In this document: positions 1,220 to 12,366 of the stretch, piece by piece
How the letters are laid out: each line of letters begins with the position of its first letter
Position numbering within the stretch: position 1 is the stretch's first letter
DNA from: Candidatus Latescibacterota bacterium
GTDB taxonomy: Bacteria > Latescibacterota > UBA2968
Reading direction: 5' to 3'
NCBI GenBank assembly: GCA_022821275.1
Contig: JAJEDY010000042.1
Location: forward strand, 1 to 40,571
Length of the DNA stretch: 40,571 nt
Position numbers and translations under genes: made by a program
Notes under the pieces: model-generated
What the model was told of the DNA's origin: nothing
What the model saw: the letters and a program-made list of their open reading frames with translations, nothing else
The model's database searches: none

Positions 1220-2569
1220 TTACACTTGTTTCCTGCGAAATGCGTGGGGATTGACGATTTCATATCCCCATTGATCCAACAATTCCTGCCCGTTCTCAAA
1301 CGCGTCGTTCTGTTTCTTCAACAGATCTGAAAGCAAACCTTCCAGATGCGTTTGAACAGATTCTACCTCAGGCCGACCACAAAGGTTCTCCAACTGATAA
1401 GGATCTGTCTCGTTGTCATACAACAACCAGGGCCCCTCCAGGTCACGCACATAAGTATAACGGCTCGTGCGAACGCCTCGATATTCTCTGCCACCATGTT
1501 CATAAGAATAATTGGCAAACGGCACGTAGCATCCAAAGAGTGAAGCTTCAAAAGGTGCTTCGGCTTCACCGAGCATGTGTTTGGCAAAACTCACCCCTTC
1601 GACGCCTTCCGGCACAGGCGCGCCTACCAGATCCAGCATGGTTGGCATCATATCCGGTATCCCAAAAGGTGTGTCGATTTGGCGACCCGTGCCATCTGGC
1701 AATCGCAACAGAAAGGGCACAAGAATGGATTCATCCCAGGGCCGTATTTTCCGATCATGGCCTTGCGACCCATTCATTTCACCGTGATCAGACGTAAACA
1801 CAAGAATCGTATCCTCTGTCATCCCGAGGCGTTCAAGTGCTTCTTCAATACGCCCAACACAGTGATCAAGTGCCGTAATATGCGCGTAATAACCCCACAT
1901 GTCATTCCGGGCCGTCGCTACACACTCAGCAGGCACATTATCTCTCAATACAATATCGTCTTCATTGTAAAGCGCTTTGTATTCTTCAGGCACCTTGTGA
2001 AATGGGTTATGGGGCGGGCCATATGAAACAAAAAGGAAAAAGGGATCGTCTTCATCCTGCCTGCCCTCCAGATACTCAATCGCACAATCGGTCTGTGCAA
2101 ACGCATCGTATCCTTCCCACTTTTTCATAATACCCGAGTCATCATAATAGGGCGAATCGTAATAATTGTGCGAGCATTCGTGCGCGCGCCAAAAGTCAAA
2201 GCCCAACCGTCGCTCAGGTGGGATGAAATTTTGCTCGTGGGTATCTCCGTCCAAATGCCACTTGCCAATGTATGCCGTATCATAACCGTGTGACTTTAGA
2301 ACCTCAGCCAATGTGGTTGTATTGGGCTCAAGCCGAATCTGGTTTAAAAAAATCCCATGCGTCAGTGGATATTGCCCGGTCAACAGACAGGCACGAGCCG
2401 GACAACAAACCGGGCATGTTGACACAGTCGTATCCAACCGAATACTCTTTTGAGCCAGGGCATCGAGATTGGGTGTCTTAACATTTGGATCTCCCGCATA
2501 CCCGGTCGCCTGTGCGCGCCACTGATCGGTCAAAATGAATACAATATTGGGCTTTTCTTTGTTGGTCAC
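1220..2569 (-). CDS. type I sulfatase
   Basis: Formylglycine-dependent sulfatase of the alkaline phosphatase superfamily, predicted to hydrolyse a sulfate ester. The N-terminal KPNIVFILTDQWR carries the calcium-binding Asp. The activation motif is C55-C56-P57-A58-R59 followed by ACLLTG, matching CxPxR but with Ala in place of the usual Ser. TSDHGEMNGSQGH supplies the second metal-binding DH pair. The start is set at GTG 2569 because GGGGAGG ends about 5 bases upstream; the frame also opens at GTG 2593, but no ribosome site precedes that codon. About 449 residues, normal for the family. No clear signal peptide is visible, so it is probably cytoplasmic. It is third in a leftward series of sulfatases. 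Confidence 0.93.
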   Translation of the reverse strand: MTNKEKPNIVFILTDQWRAQATGYAGDPNVKTPNLDALAQKSIRLDTTVSTCPVCCPARACLLTGQYPLTHGIFLNQIRLEPNTTTLAEVLKSHGYDTAYIGKWHLDGDTHEQNFIPPERRLGFDFWRAHECSHNYYDSPYYDDSGIMKKWEGYDAFAQTDCAIEYLEGRQDEDDPFFLFVSYGPPHNPFHKVPEEYKALYNEDDIVLRDNVPAECVATARNDMWGYYAHITALDHCVGRIEEALERLGMTEDTILVFTSDHGEMNGSQGHDRKIRPWDESILVPFLLRLPDGTGRQIDTPFGIPDMMPTMLDLVGAPVPEGVEGVSFAKHMLGEAEAPFEASLFGCYVPFANYSYEHGGREYRGVRTSRYTYVRDLEGPWLLYDNETDPYQLENLCGRPEVESVQTHLEGLLSDLLKKQNDAFENGQELLDQWGYEIVNPHAFRRKQV

Positions 2570-2714
2570 AATAACCTCCCCAGATCCCTTCACGCTAATA
2601 AAAGAATCACAGAAATATCAAAAAGATTTGATTCCTTCTTAAACAACCGGTCTGATCTCTGGCGCGCTGTTCTCTATCAATCGACGGTTCTGTCATCTGA
2701 GCCATCGGGGGATT

Positions 2715-4142
2715 CTAAACACTCGGCAAAGGCACAGTATCTCCTGTTTCATGTTGCCATAATCGAATCTTCGCCGCCATATCGCGAATGCGATCGCGCT
2801 GTTCAGGAACATCAAACAGATTGTTTTCTTCATAGGGATCTGTCTTCAGGTCGAACAACTCACACTGATCACCAGCACACAAATTCAACTTCCAGCGATC
2901 ACCCGTCACCACAGACCGCCAGGGCAATGTCGCCATCAAGTTAATGCTTGGATTCCCTAAATTGCGATCGCCAATCCCATTACACTCCATAAATGCAACG
3001 TGATCCTTCAAATCGCGCTCACCGGTGAGTGCACCAGCCAAACTTTCCCCTTCACACTGATCTGAAACTTCAACGCCCGCCAGATCCAAAAGTGTCGGCA
3101 CCAAATCCGCATGCCCAAACACACCATCGATTCGTTTCTGTTCCTTATTCAACCACGGCACACTGAGCAAAAACGGCACTCGCGCAGATTCTTCGTAAAA
3201 CGTCCGTTTTTCCAGCATCGCATGATCGCCCACCATTTCCCCATGATCACTCGTGTAAGCAATAATCGTATTCTCCAGTTGCCCTGTCTCTTCCAATGCC
3301 CGAATGATCCGCCCCACAGCATCATCCACAATCTTCATATTTCCGAAGTATTGCGATCTCACTTTCCGCCATCCCAATTCCGTACTTAAATCTTCACCTG
3401 CCTCTATCTTCGTTGCATAATGCTCTGCTCGCACCCGATTAAATCGCGAATGCCCTTCAGGATGTTTCAAAAACGTCGGGCCAACCGGCAATTCCTCAGG
3501 ATCATACAAACCGTCATACGGCCCTGTATATGGCGGGTGCGGTTCAAACGTACTGCACACCAGCAACCAGGGCTGATCGACATTTTCTCGAATAAACCGA
3601 TCCGCTTCCTGCGCGACAAACGCCCCGACCTGTTGTTCCGCTGGCAAACGTGCGCGATCTCCTGCAGAAAATTGTTTCAAATCCGGTGCCAAATGCGAGG
3701 GTGGTTCAACGCCCTGCGCCACCAACCACTCATAGTGGGAACTCATCGGCGCATCTTGAATCGTATTCAAATGCCGCAAATTATCCTGAATACTGATCCA
3801 CTCATCAAACCCATGTTGGCGAACGGTATCGTTGCCCAAATGCCATTTGCCCATATATGCCTTGCGATATGTATCTGGCATCATTTCCGCAATCGACTTT
3901 GTATCTTCCCGTAGATGAATCCCATTTGCCACACATCCGTGCGAATGAGGGTACAGCCCAGACATCAACGTACCCCGCGATGGCGTACACACAGCCTGAC
4001 CAACATACGTATTCTCAAAAACAAAAGACCGCTCCGAAAGCGCATTCAAATGCGGCGATTGAATCCAATCGTTGCCGTAACACGACATGGTATCTGTGCG
4101 TTGCTGATCTGTGAACACAAAAAGAATATTCGGTTGATTCAT
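2715..4142 (-). CDS. type I sulfatase
   Basis: A 475-residue sulfatase. The start NILFVFTDQQR contains the first metal-binding Asp. C52-T-P-S-R followed by GTLMSG is a canonical formylglycine motif. TSDHGEMVGDHAMLEKR with FYEESARVPF downstream is typical of the broad choline-sulfatase/arylsulfatase branch. The ATG at 4142 lies 2 bases after the stop of the upstream sulfatase gene, and a GAGGG ribosome site sits inside that gene's last codons, so the two are probably translationally coupled. No signal peptide is visible. The substrate cannot be read from sequence; carbohydrate sulfate is likely from context. Confidence 0.94.
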   Translation of the reverse strand: MNQPNILFVFTDQQRTDTMSCYGNDWIQSPHLNALSERSFVFENTYVGQAVCTPSRGTLMSGLYPHSHGCVANGIHLREDTKSIAEMMPDTYRKAYMGKWHLGNDTVRQHGFDEWISIQDNLRHLNTIQDAPMSSHYEWLVAQGVEPPSHLAPDLKQFSAGDRARLPAEQQVGAFVAQEADRFIRENVDQPWLLVCSTFEPHPPYTGPYDGLYDPEELPVGPTFLKHPEGHSRFNRVRAEHYATKIEAGEDLSTELGWRKVRSQYFGNMKIVDDAVGRIIRALEETGQLENTIIAYTSDHGEMVGDHAMLEKRTFYEESARVPFLLSVPWLNKEQKRIDGVFGHADLVPTLLDLAGVEVSDQCEGESLAGALTGERDLKDHVAFMECNGIGDRNLGNPSINLMATLPWRSVVTGDRWKLNLCAGDQCELFDLKTDPYEENNLFDVPEQRDRIRDMAAKIRLWQHETGDTVPLPSV

Positions 4143-4144
4143 AT

Positions 4145-6142
4145 CTATCCCTCAAACTCAGAGGACAGTTCGATTCTCTTCATCACCCGCTCCAATACCC
4201 ACACCCTGACGATGCCATCCCGCTGCCCACCGAGACCGCCTGTGTAATTGTTCCTTTCGACCTGCGCGTTGTGTTCCGGCCCGCACATCTCCTGTTTGTT
4301 TATGGCTTGCTCCAGGACGGGAATAAGCGGTTTCATAGGCTGTAGTTCTTCGCGGCTGCGGTATGACAGATAGGCACCGGCGCGTAGCCGCGCCCAGAGG
4401 ATATCGCTCGATAGTGCGTGCTCAAAAGCGGGCAGAGTTAGGGCGCCTTCGCCTGCCCGCACCAGATAGTCTCCGGCGGCCAGGCTGACGCTGATTGAGG
4501 GGTCGTCAAGCAGGGGGGATAGGCGCTCGACCATCGCGCGTTCCACACCAAGCGAGCAAAGGCCGGTAACGGCCCAGAAACGCACGGCGCTGTCGGGATC
4601 ACCAAGTCGTTTTGCGAGTTCTTCCTTTGCTTCTTCGTCCATGCGCGCCAGGTCCGCTGTTTCCAGGATTCGCTCGTAATGATCACAGTGAGTACCGACT
4701 GCGTGGCTGATGCCGTTGTACTGCTCAGCTCGCGCGGCAATCTCCGGTTCATCGATTAGCCCCAGATCGCGGGTCTCAATCATCCAGCCGAACAACTTCT
4801 GTCGCAATTCCTCTTTGACATCGCTGAAAGCGGGATCATCCGCCAGGTTATGCACCTGTTCAGGATCCTTTTCTATGTCGTATAACTCTTCGGCGGGTTT
4901 GTGATCCTGCCAGATCTGAAACTGCCGGTAATGCTCAGGCAGCCCGTCCTGTTTAATCATGACCGGCGGGCCGAGCATCAGAAACACGCCGTCGGGGTCG
5001 TGGACCTTTTGTTTGCCCGGCAGGCAAGAGGTCTCCCAGAAGGCTCGCTCCGGTGTTCCTTCCTCTGGCACTGTGGCAAAGAACCCGCCGTCCGGATAGA
5101 AGGAAGCGTATGGCTGGTGGGGCAGGAAGTTGCGCATGTAACGGTATTTTTTGGTGCGGATTGTACGGATTACCTCCGGATTGTTGTCCAGCCGATCCCT
5201 GGCACTGCAGACAAACGCCCTCGGTTCATCTCTATTGGGTCCGCACAGGTTTCGACTCTGGATGTGTTCGGCAATAGGAGCGCCTGCCAGTTGCAGGGTC
5301 GTCGCACACAGGTCCATGTGCAAGACGGGTTCATCAACCGCGGTGCCGGGGTCTGCAGGGGATAGGTGCCGGTACTTCTCCGGGAATCGCATGATCAGCG
5401 GAATACTCAATCCGTCGTCGTAGGCATGGATCTTGCCCCGGGGATAACCCGTGCCGTGGTCTCCCCAATAGACCACAATGGTGTCTTCACTGTGCCCCTG
5501 CGCTTCAAGCTGGTCCAGTATCTCTCCGACCTGCTTATCGACATTGGTAAGAGCATCGTAGAAGAGTGCCATCCGTTCCCTGAACAGGGGCGTGTCGGGA
5601 ACAAAACTCGGAACCGGCACCTCATTCGGATCGTGCAACTCGTCGTCGCTCAAGAGCGAGGAACGCGCTTTCCGTGCATCCTCGGGCGTCAGTTTGAATA
5701 CACTTGCGTGGGAACTGCCCAGTCTGTAGTACATGAAAAATGGCTTGTCTTCAGGGCGATTCTCCCAGAAATCGTCAGCGTTGTAATACTGTTCGCGCTC
5801 CTCTTTGGAGACGTATAGATTGATGTCATTGTCCGGCTGCGTGCAGGCATAACCGGCGTTTGTCAGCATTGTGTTTAACAGTTCAACCCCTGTGGGACGG
5901 ATGACCGCACTGCGGTGATGATGTGTGCCCAGCGTGGTCGGATGCATGCCGGTATAGATGCCTGTGCGCGACGGTGAGCAGATTGGGCCTGCAGTAAACG
6001 CGTTGGTGTAGCGCACGCCTTCTGCCGATAGGCGGTCAATATTCGGGGTATGCGCGTTTTGATCTCCGTAGCAACCGTAGTTCCAGGCGCTGGAGTCGTG
6101 GTTGCTGATCCAGAGGAAATTGGGTCTGTCTTGTTTTTCCAT
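4145..6142 (-). CDS. sulfatase (N-sulfoglucosamine sulfohydrolase-like) with C-terminal HEAT-like repeats
   Basis: About 665 residues from ATG 6142 (MEKQDRPNF). The frame is open upstream to 6286, but that extension is Cys/Trp/Tyr-rich and not sulfatase-like, so it was left out; no strong ribosome site marks either start. C55-S-P-S-R followed by TGIYTG is the formylglycine motif. FLWISNHDSSAWNYGCYGD and GTHHHRS resemble the heparan N-sulfatase (SGSH) branch. YWGDHGTGYPRGKIHAYDDG is the second metal site region. After the catalytic domain (to about residue 500), roughly residues 530-650 form helical pairs such as LGDPDSAVRFWAVTGL and LDDPSISVSLAAGDYL, typical of HEAT repeats. This gives a longer protein than its neighbours and suggests a protein- or substrate-docking module. 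It is first of the sulfatase series. Confidence 0.9.
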   Translation of the reverse strand: MEKQDRPNFLWISNHDSSAWNYGCYGDQNAHTPNIDRLSAEGVRYTNAFTAGPICSPSRTGIYTGMHPTTLGTHHHRSAVIRPTGVELLNTMLTNAGYACTQPDNDINLYVSKEEREQYYNADDFWENRPEDKPFFMYYRLGSSHASVFKLTPEDARKARSSLLSDDELHDPNEVPVPSFVPDTPLFRERMALFYDALTNVDKQVGEILDQLEAQGHSEDTIVVYWGDHGTGYPRGKIHAYDDGLSIPLIMRFPEKYRHLSPADPGTAVDEPVLHMDLCATTLQLAGAPIAEHIQSRNLCGPNRDEPRAFVCSARDRLDNNPEVIRTIRTKKYRYMRNFLPHQPYASFYPDGGFFATVPEEGTPERAFWETSCLPGKQKVHDPDGVFLMLGPPVMIKQDGLPEHYRQFQIWQDHKPAEELYDIEKDPEQVHNLADDPAFSDVKEELRQKLFGWMIETRDLGLIDEPEIAARAEQYNGISHAVGTHCDHYERILETADLARMDEEAKEELAKRLGDPDSAVRFWAVTGLCSLGVERAMVERLSPLLDDPSISVSLAAGDYLVRAGEGALTLPAFEHALSSDILWARLRAGAYLSYRSREELQPMKPLIPVLEQAINKQEMCGPEHNAQVERNNYTGGLGGQRDGIVRVWVLERVMKRIELSSEFEG

Positions 6143-6289
6143 AAGTGGCTCGTATTTTTGATTTCCGGTGGGGGTTGGATTAGTCAATTTCCAAAGGAAA
6201 CAATAATATGTCCGAAACTTCCAGTCAAGAAAGTAACAGCACGTCCTCCATCTTACGAAGAAGTTGGAGGATGAGATATATCTCAATGC

Positions 6290-7186
6290 TCAGATGACTT
6301 CGTCGCCTGCCTGAGTAAGCCGGATCATGGGAAGGTCTTCATGGCGGTTTTTTTCTGGCGGATGGATGAGTTCTTCGAGGCGTTTTTTGGTGGCCAGAAA
6401 TTGGGGTGTGAGGAATTGGTCTGGATTGCGGGGGCGGGGCACGGAAACTTCGATAATTTCCTGGATGTGACCGGGGTGGGTACCTAAAACTACGATGCGG
6501 TCAGCCAGATAGACGGCTTCATCCAGGTCGTGCGTAATGAAGAGGATGGTGATATCTACGTTGCGCCAGATTTGGAGTAAGTAGGCCTGCATCTGGCTTC
6601 TGGTTTGGGCATCAAGGGCACCAAAGGGTTCGTCCATGAGCAGGATACGGGGGCGGTTGGCCAGGGCGCGTGCGATGGCCACGCGTTGTTTCATGCCACC
6701 TGAAAGTTCGTGGGGATAAGCGTTGGCAAAATTGCTCAGGCCCACAAGGTCGATCCACTGGAGTGCCTGTTCTTCGGCATAATTGTTGCCGTGGTTAGTC
6801 ATTTTGAGGCCGAACATGATATTCTTTTTTATGGTCAGCCAGGGAAAGAGCGTGTAGCCCTGGAAGACCATGCCGCGATCAGGGGACGGACCTTTCACTT
6901 CTTGATTGTCTAAGAGGACCTGGCCGGAGGTAGGATAGTCTAAGCCAGCCAGGATGCGGATGAGGGTGGATTTGCCACAGCCGGAGGCGCCGATGACACA
7001 GATAAATTCACGCCGGTGTATGTTGAACAGGATGTCGTGGAGGGCGACGATGTCGCCGTCGGCACCCGGAAAGACTTTGCCGAGGTGCTGGACTTCCAGT
7101 ATAACGGGGCGCTGGCGAATTTTTTTAAACCTGGCTCTAACGTCCGGTTCCTGTTCCAGGTAGCTCGGTAAATTCAGGTTATTCAT
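6290..7186 (-). CDS. ABC transporter ATP-binding protein, nitrate/sulfonate/taurine type
   Basis: A 298-residue ATPase that would energise uptake through the adjacent permease. Walker [11 protein letters not shown]-loop [12 protein letters not shown], signature LSGGMKQR, Walker [13 protein letters not shown] and the switch His in [15 protein letters not shown] are all intact. The sequence is of the SsuB/TauB/NrtD type and has short N- and C-terminal extensions. It is the last gene of the five-gene cassette beginning at 12366 and lies 71 bases after the permease. The upstream ribosome site is weak. The transported substrate is inferred from the hydrolase in the cassette to be guanidine; the ATPase itself does not show it. 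Confidence 0.95.
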
Positions 7187-7256: not shown

Positions 7257-8216
7257 TCAGTTGCGGCGTTCCCAGGGGAAGAGGTAGTGACCGATGAAGC
7301 GCAAGATCTGATCGGTGGTAAGGCCAATGATGCCGATCATGACAATGGCCGCGAATACGTTATCGTAGTTGCGGTATTTGGCCTGCTGATTGATAAACCA
7401 CGAGATGCCCGAAGACGCGCCGATGAGTTCGGCAACAATGAGGTAGGTCCAGGCCCAGCCCAGGAGAATGCGCATGTCGCGGTAGAGGTTGGGCAAGATG
7501 CCGGGTACAATGACGTGGAAGATCAGTTTTTTTGAGGTCGCGCCCAGAGTCTGGGCGGCTTCGAGTAGGGATTTGTCCAGCAACCGCGTGGTGTTGCCGA
7601 CCACGAGCACCATCTGGAAGAAGGTGCCGATAAAGATAATGGCCACTTTGGGCGCATCGGCGATGCCTAAAAAGGCGACCATGAGGGCACCAAAAGCCGG
7701 GGCGGGCATGTAGCGGATGAAGTCGATAAAGGGCTCAATAATGCGTGTGAAAAAGGCAAAGGTGCCACATAGAATACCGAGAGGCACGCCGAGGATGGCA
7801 GACAGGGTGAATCCGTAGAATATGACGGTGATGCTGTGCAGAATGCTTTGGTGCAGCCAGGGATCATTACGCCGGATGGGGGCGGTTTGAAAGGCCGTGA
7901 TAAAAGCCTGGACGACCTGATGCGGGGCTGGCAAGTAAATGGGGTTAGCCGGCTCGCCTCGCGCTTCTGATTCGCCCCCTTCGCGCATGAACGCATTTTC
8001 TTTGTTGAATATCTCCCGGTCAACCAGCATGTCTTTTTGAAAGTAGGCTACCCCTCCCGGATCGCTGATACGCACCATCGGATGCCAGATCCAGGGCGTG
8101 TAACTCACCAGGCTCCAGATACATAGCGGCAACAAAAAGGAGCACAGACCCAAAAGCCAACTCCTCTGACCGGACAGATCTTTGCGAATCGCAAACCAGT
8201 GTTTTCTCGTATTCAT
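7257..8216 (-). CDS. ABC transporter permease, nitrate/sulfonate/taurine type
   Basis: A 319-residue inner-membrane permease. The first membrane segment is near residues 20-40, followed by a long periplasmic insert (about residues 45-100, with DPGGVAYFQKDM). A LPAPHQVV segment typical of the family and further membrane helices come next. The EAA loop reads EAAQTLGATSKKLIFHVIVP, the coupling site for the ATPase. A single permease suggests a homodimer. It lies 71 bases upstream of the ATPase gene and 78 bases downstream of the CbiX-like/DUF362 gene, all leftward. The enlarged first periplasmic loop is noticeable and may contact the binding protein. Confidence 0.94.
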   Translation of the reverse strand: MNTRKHWFAIRKDLSGQRSWLLGLCSFLLPLCIWSLVSYTPWIWHPMVRISDPGGVAYFQKDMLVDREIFNKENAFMREGGESEARGEPANPIYLPAPHQVVQAFITAFQTAPIRRNDPWLHQSILHSITVIFYGFTLSAILGVPLGILCGTFAFFTRIIEPFIDFIRYMPAPAFGALMVAFLGIADAPKVAIIFIGTFFQMVLVVGNTTRLLDKSLLEAAQTLGATSKKLIFHVIVPGILPNLYRDMRILLGWAWTYLIVAELIGASSGISWFINQQAKYRNYDNVFAAIVMIGIIGLTTDQILRFIGHYLFPWERRN

Positions 8217-8294: not shown

Positions 8295-10151
8295 CTAAGC
8301 AAATTTCATTTTTAAAGCGTCGTCGATCTCGTTTTCACAAGCCATGGCCGGAAGCCCCAGTTCGCGTTCAACCACATCAAAGAAGGCACTTTTTCGGACA
8401 TTCTGACCCTGAAGGCGGCTGGCCAGTACATCGGCCCCGGGCAGGCCGTGGCTGAGGGTGATCAGGCCGGGATTGGGGATCAGGTCATAGTGCCCCCAGC
8501 GGCTTCGGTAAAGGCCCTGACGGTTCCAGCGGATGGCTACGTTAAGGGATTCAACCAGGCCGAAGGGATTGAAGAGGGTGCTGTAAATTTTGGCCATTTC
8601 ACAACACACACGGGCAAAATAGGTGATATTAGGACCGTGCCAGGCTGCTCTTAAAGGGGCGGGTATGAGGCCGAAGCAATTGGAGATGGACAGGCGTGTG
8701 TGACCTTTGAACCGGGCGAAGGAGATGAAATCATTGCTGGCGTGGTCGAGTAAGAGTTTTGGTATAAATCGGCAGAGTTCGGGGTGATGGGATTTGTGTC
8801 CGGCCTCTTCGAGGCGCCCTGCGATGTCGGAGGGATTGGCACATTGGCCGTCCCAATAGGCCTCGGTGACGTTGAGATAGTGGGCATTGTGGTGGTCGAT
8901 AACGTCCTGGAGGCCAGTGCGTTTGAGGTATTCTTGATCTTGATCGCGAATCCAGGTGCGATGGGCTTTGCTTTCCGTTTTCCAGTCCCAGGAGGTTCCG
9001 CCCAGATTTCGTCCTACAGTATGGCCTTCTAAGAGTACGGCCCGACCGGGCAGAGCCGACAGAAGTTTGTCGAGGGCAATGGGGTCGGTGTAGGTGCCGG
9101 TGGCATACCCATGCCAGGTGACTTTGACGAAGACGGGGTCTGAGGTGATGCCAAAACTTTGAAAGAGGCGGGATAAAGCGTCGGTGTCGTGGATTTCGGC
9201 GATGGTGGCACCCTGATAGGTGTGCGTGTGGGGCACGGAGCCTTCGAGATCTCGGATTGGCAAAGTGCCGTCGGGACCGTGGATACAACTTACAGGTTGG
9301 GCGTTTTTGTTGTGCCTGGGCGAAGGGGTGCGTTTTGCCGTTTTTTCGCGGTGGGCGTTCCATAGGGCGGCCAAACGCTGTTGCATCCATGCTGAGAGGT
9401 GTGCTGTGAGACCCAGTGACTTGCAGAGAATCCAGGTGTCGGCGCGGGGATGCTTTTTGCAGAAATCTTTGTAGATAATCCGGGTATATTCTGCGTGGTC
9501 GTCTTCAAATAGGAGATAGGGGACCAGGATCCAGCGATACGGTGTTTGCGCCGCACAGGCGAGTTGCTCGGGCAGAGGTGTTTTTTCGTGGCGTAAGAAT
9601 GCCACGTCCGCCTGTGCCAGACTCAAGTGTTCCCAGAGCAAGCGCATCAATTGATAGGATTTTGCACGGCCTGCCGGATCGCCGTGTCCACTGGCGACGA
9701 GCATCAGGGCGGTGTTTTGAGGCAATGTGTTGGTGTGGTGCAGGCGGGTGCAGATGTGATCGACAAAGGCCTGGACCAACAAGGGATGGCAGGGGTCTGG
9801 ATCGTCGTAGAAGATATTCATATCCGGATGGTCTCTGCGGGTCCGATTGATGGTTTCTATAAAGATGGTTTTCTGATCGATGCTGAAGTCCAGCAAGAGG
9901 GGCAGTATAAAGACAGCACTGGCACCGTTTTGATGGCAGGCCTGGAGATGTTCGGGCAGATCGCCTCCGGTCCATTGCCCGGCGGGAGGTAGAGACGCAC
10001 AGGTAATAGAAGGGGTAAATCCCAGGATTGGAGCGCATGTTTCGCTCAGAGCCTGGCAGAGGGCTTGGGGCTCGTTCAGACGGTTCGAGCAGGCGTCGGT
10101 CAGGAGGACAAACGCAGGAGGCCCCCCATGTGTGTGGTTACTGGATGCCAC
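8295..10151 (-). CDS. CbiX-like chelatase domain fused to DUF362 domain
   Basis: A 618-residue two-part protein. Residues about 12-265 look like the two-lobed CbiX/SirB sirohydrochlorin chelatase fold. The first lobe keeps the AVFILPLLLDFSIDQ strand but has lost the GHGS site. The second keeps SGHGDP (His156) and VPYLLFEDDHAEY (His219), the positions of the metal-binding histidines. A linker follows, and residues about 335-600 resemble DUF362: FVKVTWHGY, a central AVLLEGHT strand, then FISFARFKGHTRLS and NCFGLIP, matching the family's K-x-H and KNLFGLIP region. The GTG start at 10151 lies 6 bases after the ureohydrolase stop; no clear ribosome site is visible, so coupling is likely. The role is unknown. 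Position beside a predicted nickel enzyme suggests metal delivery; cobalamin or other tetrapyrrole metalation is the alternative. Confidence 0.75.
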   Translation of the reverse strand: MASSNHTHGGPPAFVLLTDACSNRLNEPQALCQALSETCAPILGFTPSITCASLPPAGQWTGGDLPEHLQACHQNGASAVFILPLLLDFSIDQKTIFIETINRTRRDHPDMNIFYDDPDPCHPLLVQAFVDHICTRLHHTNTLPQNTALMLVASGHGDPAGRAKSYQLMRLLWEHLSLAQADVAFLRHEKTPLPEQLACAAQTPYRWILVPYLLFEDDHAEYTRIIYKDFCKKHPRADTWILCKSLGLTAHLSAWMQQRLAALWNAHREKTAKRTPSPRHNKNAQPVSCIHGPDGTLPIRDLEGSVPHTHTYQGATIAEIHDTDALSRLFQSFGITSDPVFVKVTWHGYATGTYTDPIALDKLLSALPGRAVLLEGHTVGRNLGGTSWDWKTESKAHRTWIRDQDQEYLKRTGLQDVIDHHNAHYLNVTEAYWDGQCANPSDIAGRLEEAGHKSHHPELCRFIPKLLLDHASNDFISFARFKGHTRLSISNCFGLIPAPLRAAWHGPNITYFARVCCEMAKIYSTLFNPFGLVESLNVAIRWNRQGLYRSRWGHYDLIPNPGLITLSHGLPGADVLASRLQGQNVRKSAFFDVVERELGLPAMACENEIDDALKMKFA

Positions 10152-11385: not shown

Positions 11386-12366
11386 TTATTTCAGTTCCAT
11401 AATCAAGCTGGGATCGAAGTAGGTATCAATGTCCTGCGATTTTTCATAGACCTTGTTATCCACGTTGAATGTGTTGACCACTTCGCTGGATCCATAAACC
11501 GAATCTAACCCCTTGGCTTTGGCAAAGCGTTTTTTGGCCTGTTCTGCGGTGAGCAAGTAGGTGCCTTCCAGGAGTGGGGCATAGTCTTCGGGGGTGAGGC
11601 CCACGCGGGCACTGAGGATTTTGAGGACTTCCTCGCGGTTGCTGTCGTCTTTGATGTAATCTACAATGTCATACCAGATTTTAACGATTTTCTGCCAGTC
11701 TTCCCTGTTGGCCGCCAGGCTTTCGTTGCTTACGTAAAGCAGGTCATAAATGATGCCGGGCGCATTGGCACTGGTGAAAATGGGCCGGGAGCCGGGCACG
11801 GTTTTGAGGGCCTGTCCGGAGTTGGGTTGCCAGGCCACGATGGCGTCGACCTGTTTGGAGGCCAGACCCTGAGGGGTTTCGTGGGTGGGCATGTTGATCA
11901 GGGTGACATCGCTTTCTTTCAGGCCATTGGCTTCGAGGCCTTTGAGCAGCAAGAGGTGGCTGACAAAACCCAGTTCGACACCCACTTTTTTGCCTTTGAG
12001 TTGGGTGATTTTGCGAATGCCCGGTCTGCCAACGACCATGTCGTTGCCGTTGGAGTAGTCGTTGATCAAGATGCCTTTGCAGGCTTTGCCTGTGGCACCT
12101 GTGACCAGGGCGTCCCCGTTGGTCATGCACACGGCATCTACTTTACTGGCGGCAAAGGCGTCCATGGACGGCACATATTCAAACCAGATAAATTCCACAT
12201 CAACGCCGGCTTTTTTGAACCAACCCTTCTGGATGCCAACTTCCCAAGCGACCCAACCCGGCCAGTCGCTGTAGCCAATTTTGAGTTTGGCGGCCAACGA
12301 GGGAGAGGCAAAAAGCAGGGAGAACGCGCACCCGACAATGAGAAATAGGCGTGTGCCTTTTTTCAT
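11386..12366 (-). CDS. ABC transporter substrate-binding protein, NMT1/nitrate-taurine type
   Basis: A 326-residue periplasmic binding protein. Residues 1-25 are a signal peptide ([19 protein letters not shown], cleaved near SLAA). The mature start [18 protein letters not shown] is the classic NMT1/THI5-like opening that lines the ligand pocket. Later [14 protein letters not shown] and [20 protein letters not shown] are hallmarks of the family. The ATG at 12366 has a strong AAGGAG site. It is first in the operon, 71 bases before the ureohydrolase, which points to delivery of that enzyme's substrate. Binding proteins of this family accompany guanidine-degradation genes in cyanobacteria. No guanidine-I riboswitch core was recognised upstream. 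Confidence 0.93.

Follow-up and report, generated by a model that had tools for sequence, protein, structure and literature searches.

Guanidinase operons described so far often hold hypA and hypB together with SsuA-family, permease and NrtD/SsuB-type genes, and in Synechocystis and the picocyanobacteria the corresponding clusters contain hypA and hypB beside a transporter of this kind (PMC8390497; PMC10119275). The related metformin hydrolases depend on co-expressed HypA and HypB (PMC11399263). The guanidinase of Nitrospira inopinata has no known chaperone, yet is partly nickel-loaded and active, and how a guanidinase is supplied with nickel where HypA and HypB are missing has been posed in print as a question for that organism (PMC11410670). 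Two further families bear on the locus described here. In the class II chelatase SirB, the metal ligands His10, Glu43 and His76 lie in lobe 1, with Arg134 and Leu200 at the matching positions of lobe 2, and all four corresponding positions are His in the CfbA dimer (PMC11301274). DUF362 and the LarA nickel-pincer racemases belong to one Pfam clan (PMC11770544).

We analyzed a 40,571-nucleotide stretch of DNA from a Candidatus Latescibacterota bacterium (contig JAJEDY010000042.1; this whole stretch is called the window below), in which a gene next to a predicted guanidinase gene encodes a two-part protein, hereafter the fusion. The features discussed are collected in Table 1.

Table 1. Predicted features of the guanidinase operon and of the fusion, with positions in the window.
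Feature	Position	Strand	Basis
SsuA/NMT1-type substrate-binding protein (SBP), 326 aa, first operon gene	11386..12366	-	Pfam NMT1_2 3.8e-18; NCBIfam TIGR03427 1.2e-49, below cut-off
GdmH-type Ni-dependent guanidine hydrolase, 385 aa	10158..11315	-	full-length PDB matches
Chelatase-like/DUF362-like two-part protein (fusion)	8295..10151	-	618 aa, GTG start
Chelatase lobe 1 (residues about 12-140)	9732..10118	-	alignment with two-lobed CbiX/SirB proteins; canonical metal His lost
Chelatase lobe 2 (residues about 145-262)	9366..9719	-	invariant H156, H188, E189, H219; Pfam CbiX best stretch
C-terminal half (residues 312-618)	8298..9218	-	weakly DUF362-like; most conserved part
DUF362-matching stretch (residues 474-524, DFISFARFKGHTRLSISNCFGLIP...)	8580..8732	-	Pfam PF04015 E 0.067, below cut-off
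ABC transporter permease of operon	7257..8216	-	Pfam BPD_transp_1 4.1e-25; order conserved
ABC transporter ATPase (NrtD/SsuB-like) of operon	6290..7186	-	TIGR01184 7.5e-76, below its cut-off; order conserved

The 618-codon ORF of the fusion begins 6 bases past the stop codon of gdmH, and the earlier note, which had placed this start 6 bases after a predicted nickel ureohydrolase, is borne out by the ORF coordinates and by the kinship of the neighbor. Going by its sequence, that upstream neighbor is closely related to the Ni-dependent guanidinase GdmH; its best PDB matches, full length, are 9fek from N. inopinata (E 1.8e-148) and 7esr/7oi1 from Synechocystis (E 1.8e-146), and it keeps the key stretches GTTYR (Thr97) and VPGTGWPEPGG (Trp305), the roles of these two residues being taken from PMC11410670. 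The SBP gene, which probably encodes a guanidine-binding protein, is kept beside gdmH in all four genomes that carry the fusion, and the five-gene unit SBP-gdmH-fusion-permease-ATPase is likewise conserved in 4/4 carriers. No guanidine riboswitch was found within the window, and no tetrapyrrole or lar genes were recognized among the operon genes using Pfam and NCBIfam. Beyond the operon, on the same strand, lie three sulfatase-family genes in a row (window 1220-6286), of which the one at 4145-6286 has weak HEAT-repeat matches as well. Flanking sulfatases were not found at the most divergent locus (L004), whose contig is short, suggesting that their absence marks the border of the unit on that side.

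The fusion is a genuine gene rather than a chance ORF, since 4 of the 64 Latescibacterota genomes searched (two genera of one family) carry it at full length and without stops, and since it is under purifying selection as a whole, with a dN/dS of 0.15 against a 94%-identical orthologue (L002). By part, this ratio was highest in lobe 1 (0.40), followed by lobe 2 (0.14) and the C-terminal half (0.05). Three fusion loci also turned up in a second genome collection in a single-sequence search, while no relatives were found on viral contigs and no phage family was matched. Identity between the window and L004 is 90% for GdmH, 76-79% for the transporter genes and 61% for the fusion. We would like to note that at one locus (L003, genome G032) gdmH (5215-6372) contains an in-frame stop and the upstream binding-protein gene (4708-5118) is shortened, despite which the fusion, permease and ATPase genes are intact. 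These changes may be due to recent decay or to a faulty assembly, or may hint at a second role of the fusion, and this case weakens a strict coupling of the fusion to gdmH.

The N-terminal part of the fusion matched Pfam CbiX (PF01903) with 44.7 bits, over the curated cut-off of 22 (E 1.8e-11), with residues 155-257 as the best stretch, and each of the four orthologues matched this family as well. A profile of residues 1-272 proved colinear with both lobes of Bacillus subtilis SirB (SirB residues 58-211, E 2.9e-4), and the fusion also aligned colinearly with full-length two-lobed CbiX/SirB homologues. In these alignments lobe 2 of the fusion is closer to lobe 2 of the homologues than to their lobe 1, which points to descent from a two-lobed chelatase type. 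Residues about 12-262 are thus supported as a divergent two-lobed class II chelatase of the CbiX/SirB type. A structure prediction of the whole fusion was too poor for use (mean pLDDT 36.5). Foldseek placed SirB at the top for a model of the N-terminal half (E 7e-5), which is weak support given the model's mean pLDDT of only 52.7.

Both lobe-1 His positions of class II chelatases are replaced in the aligned fusion orthologues. In lobe 2, H219 aligns with the Leu200 position (the CfbA His75 type), whereas H156 falls two residues after the Arg134 position (the CfbA His9 type) in an ungapped alignment, a His-to-His register being possible with a short gap; R187 occupies the Glu position, with H188 and E189 beside it. 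H156, H188, E189 and H219 are invariant in 4/4 orthologues, although these are few sequences. From this pattern, the fusion lacks the catalytic site that ordinary chelatases have, and lobe 2 possibly holds a new or shifted metal site. The earlier note had claimed metal-type histidines 156 and 219 in the second lobe only, and the loss from lobe 1 and the position of H219 agree with this, whereas H156 is two residues off.

These results bear on whether the fusion is an ordinary cobalamin or siroheme chelatase that inserts metal into a tetrapyrrole and sits in the operon by chance. Its score over the Pfam CbiX cut-off would fit, as would its plasmid relatives, which are CbiX-only and, in all five that were examined, adjoin cobalamin or siroheme genes. 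Nevertheless, we consider this very improbable, as the catalytic lobe has lost its metal ligands, the operon offers no recognized tetrapyrrole gene, a separate, ordinary small single-domain CbiX is encoded on another contig of the window's genome, and relatives without gdmH do not carry the fusion. A second, partial CbiX-like protein of 237 aa was seen elsewhere (L029 1390-2103, G000:C36), next to what by eye are thymidylate synthase-like and phytanoyl-CoA-dioxygenase-type genes.

The C-terminal half is 70-98% identical among orthologues and has many invariant His, Asp, Glu and Trp residues. Against Pfam DUF362 (PF04015) it scored 13.7 bits (E 0.067), under the gathering cut-off of 24, the match covering a stretch typical of that family (DFISFARFKGHTRLSISNCFGLIP in the fusion, DEFVSVAKLKNHAFMGVTLTLKNLFGLMP in DUF362). 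Against 20 DUF362 proteins taken from relatives, a profile-profile comparison scored 28.0, which was equaled by 1 of 200 column shuffles, and a forced full-length alignment with DUF362 was colinear. A KxH...KNxxG stretch, a pattern written after the sequences had been seen, reads KGHTRLSISNCFG in three orthologues and has KGP in the fourth; in the most divergent orthologue (L007 1336-3336), which carries an N-terminal extension and whose start is uncertain, the His of KxH is missing. The C-half profile retrieved no match from the PDB. One match to the C-half in genome G011 (L008, E 9.7e-4) was dropped because it runs antisense to an aminotransferase-like gene. We therefore describe this half as possibly DUF362-like and do not treat it as a DUF362 member. 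The earlier proposal of a chelatase-like half joined to a DUF362-like half accordingly holds for the former, whose similarity was kept in profile searches (Pfam over cut-off, SirB alignment), and is weaker than claimed for the latter, which lies below cut-off.

The strong conservation of this half and its invariant residues could also point to an enzyme that works in guanidine or cofactor metabolism, its catalytic DUF362/LarA-clan half being supplied with metal or a metal-tetrapyrrole by the chelatase half. Membership of DUF362 and the nickel-pincer enzyme LarA in one Pfam clan (PMC11770544) would be in keeping with such a role. We find it unlikely, given the weak link to DUF362, the lack of recognized lar or tetrapyrrole genes among the operon genes, and a GdmH without any known need for an extra enzyme.

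Using a presence threshold of E<=1e-60, GdmH was found in 4 of the 64 Latescibacterota genomes, and the fusion occurs in exactly those four, adjacent to gdmH every time. The chance of such a co-occurrence is 1.6e-6 if the genomes are independent, although their kinship leaves maybe only one or two independent events. No HypA was detected in any of the 15 genomes of the family, with or without the fusion, so that its absence is not specific to the carriers. No HypB over cut-off was detected in the four carriers; matches below cut-off were present, at the level of UreG in three of them, and in the window's genome this match is a UreG with a His-rich N-terminus beside the urease genes. The fusion itself matched no NCBIfam family, HypA and HypB included. 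The co-occurrence with the hydrolase that the earlier note proposed to check, especially where hypA and hypB are absent, thus holds within the phylum, with no HypA and no recognizable HypB in the carriers. The outcome that would have spoken against it, homologues of the fusion beside tetrapyrrole genes, did not occur, since all the fusions that were found adjoin gdmH.

Urease was found over cut-off in 12 of the 15 family members, including all four carriers, and in the window's genome UreF, UreG and UreD adjoin it. GdmH might accordingly receive its nickel from UreG and other urease accessory proteins, with the fusion redundant or engaged in something unrelated. The UreG-level HypB matches in three carriers speak for this supply, and the His-rich UreG of the window's genome, which could deliver nickel, also counts against a nickel role of the fusion. 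We nonetheless judge it improbable as a full account, since it leaves unexplained why the fusion stands in this operon and occurs only with GdmH; because most close relatives without the fusion have urease too, the fusion tracks GdmH and not urease.

Other guanidinase operons were compared at the same position. On plasmids of Limimaricola and Sinorhizobium (L015 and L016), gdmH is followed directly by a gene for a His-rich protein that has no Pfam match (L015 8160-8705, L016 8166-8705); the two proteins are related to each other (E 1e-12), and are candidates for another nickel partner of the guanidinase. On the Sinorhizobium fredii NGR234 plasmid, a HupE gene follows the His-rich protein (L016 8731-9318). 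HupE is a known type of Ni transporter. Two Rubrobacter plasmid gdmH loci have no annotated HypA or HypB nearby, one of them with urease genes close by. Nickel-type genes are thus common beside gdmH but not present at every locus.

Taken together, we read the fusion as a guanidinase-specific accessory, most likely one that delivers or inserts nickel in place of HypA and HypB, and give this a probability of roughly 45%. The reading draws on the same 4 of 64 genomes, the conserved unit and the lack of a detected HypA or a HypB over cut-off, set beside published operons that contain hypA and hypB; on the alphaproteobacterial gdmH operons with other nickel-type genes in the same slot; and on the separate single-domain CbiX of the window's genome and the purifying selection on the whole fusion. 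We counted against it the off-canonical position of H156, the stop in the gdmH of G032, and the restriction to four genomes in two genera. An accessory may also be unnecessary, considering that the N. inopinata guanidinase is active without a known chaperone and that the Rubrobacter loci lack annotated HypA and HypB.

In this main reading, the ABC transporter of the operon would import guanidine, GdmH would cleave it to urea and ammonia, and the urease of the genome would complete the breakdown. Nickel would most likely be bound in the rebuilt cleft of the two-lobed chelatase, in lobe 2, by H219 with H156 and perhaps H188/E189, and the fusion would interact with apo-GdmH and hand the metal over, the C-terminal half perhaps docking GdmH, or gating or driving the transfer. 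The fusion would thereby take over the task that HypA/HypB perform for GdmH in cyanobacteria. More tentatively, a class II tetrapyrrole chelatase whose metal site has moved to the other lobe, joined to a LarA-clan-like domain, may have become a metallochaperone that inserts nickel into the guanidinase independently of HypA/HypB.

The same locus can be read without metal: the fusion could be a partner of GdmH or the guanidine pathway built on a dead chelatase fold, serving assembly or stability, or acting on the hexamer or the transporter in an allosteric or regulatory way. Its strict linkage with gdmH, the loss of the canonical metal site from a lobe 1 that is also its fastest evolving part, and the strongest constraint falling on the C-terminal half and not on the chelatase would all suit such a partner. 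We hold this to be rather unlikely, in view of the invariance of H156, H188, E189 and H219 in the four orthologues, few as these sequences are, and of the metal-handling genes that occupy the same slot in other guanidinase operons. On comparative evidence from four genomes of one family, the fusion, a dedicated gene of the guanidinase operon not homologous to hypA or hypB, is a good and specific candidate, easy to express, for nickel loading free of HypA/HypB. If it does load nickel, a tetrapyrrole chelatase fold would be serving a protein target.

Compared with known systems, the fusion resembles HypA/HypB of the guanidine and metformin hydrolases in operon company and proposed job, but is unrelated to them in sequence, being neither a HypB-type GTPase nor a HypA-type protein. 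The operons with a His-rich protein and HupE likewise have a gene after gdmH in the position of the fusion, again with unrelated sequences. With the two-lobed class II chelatases CbiX/SirB (PF01903), the fusion shares a colinear alignment across both lobes and a Pfam match over cut-off, and differs in lacking the lobe-1 metal His, in having lobe-2 His, in its extra 300-residue C-terminal half, and in its linkage to gdmH rather than to tetrapyrrole genes. Its C-terminal half may have one conserved, K-x-H...N-x-x-G-like stretch in common with DUF362 (PF04015, LarA clan), while falling below the Pfam cut-off and having the His of KxH replaced in its most divergent orthologue. The nickel sirohydrochlorin chelatase CfbA belongs to the same family as the N-terminal half and shows that this fold can handle nickel (PMC11301274), yet CfbA, a small homodimer, has four His and acts on a tetrapyrrole, whereas the fusion is one polypeptide with a single, shifted set of His.
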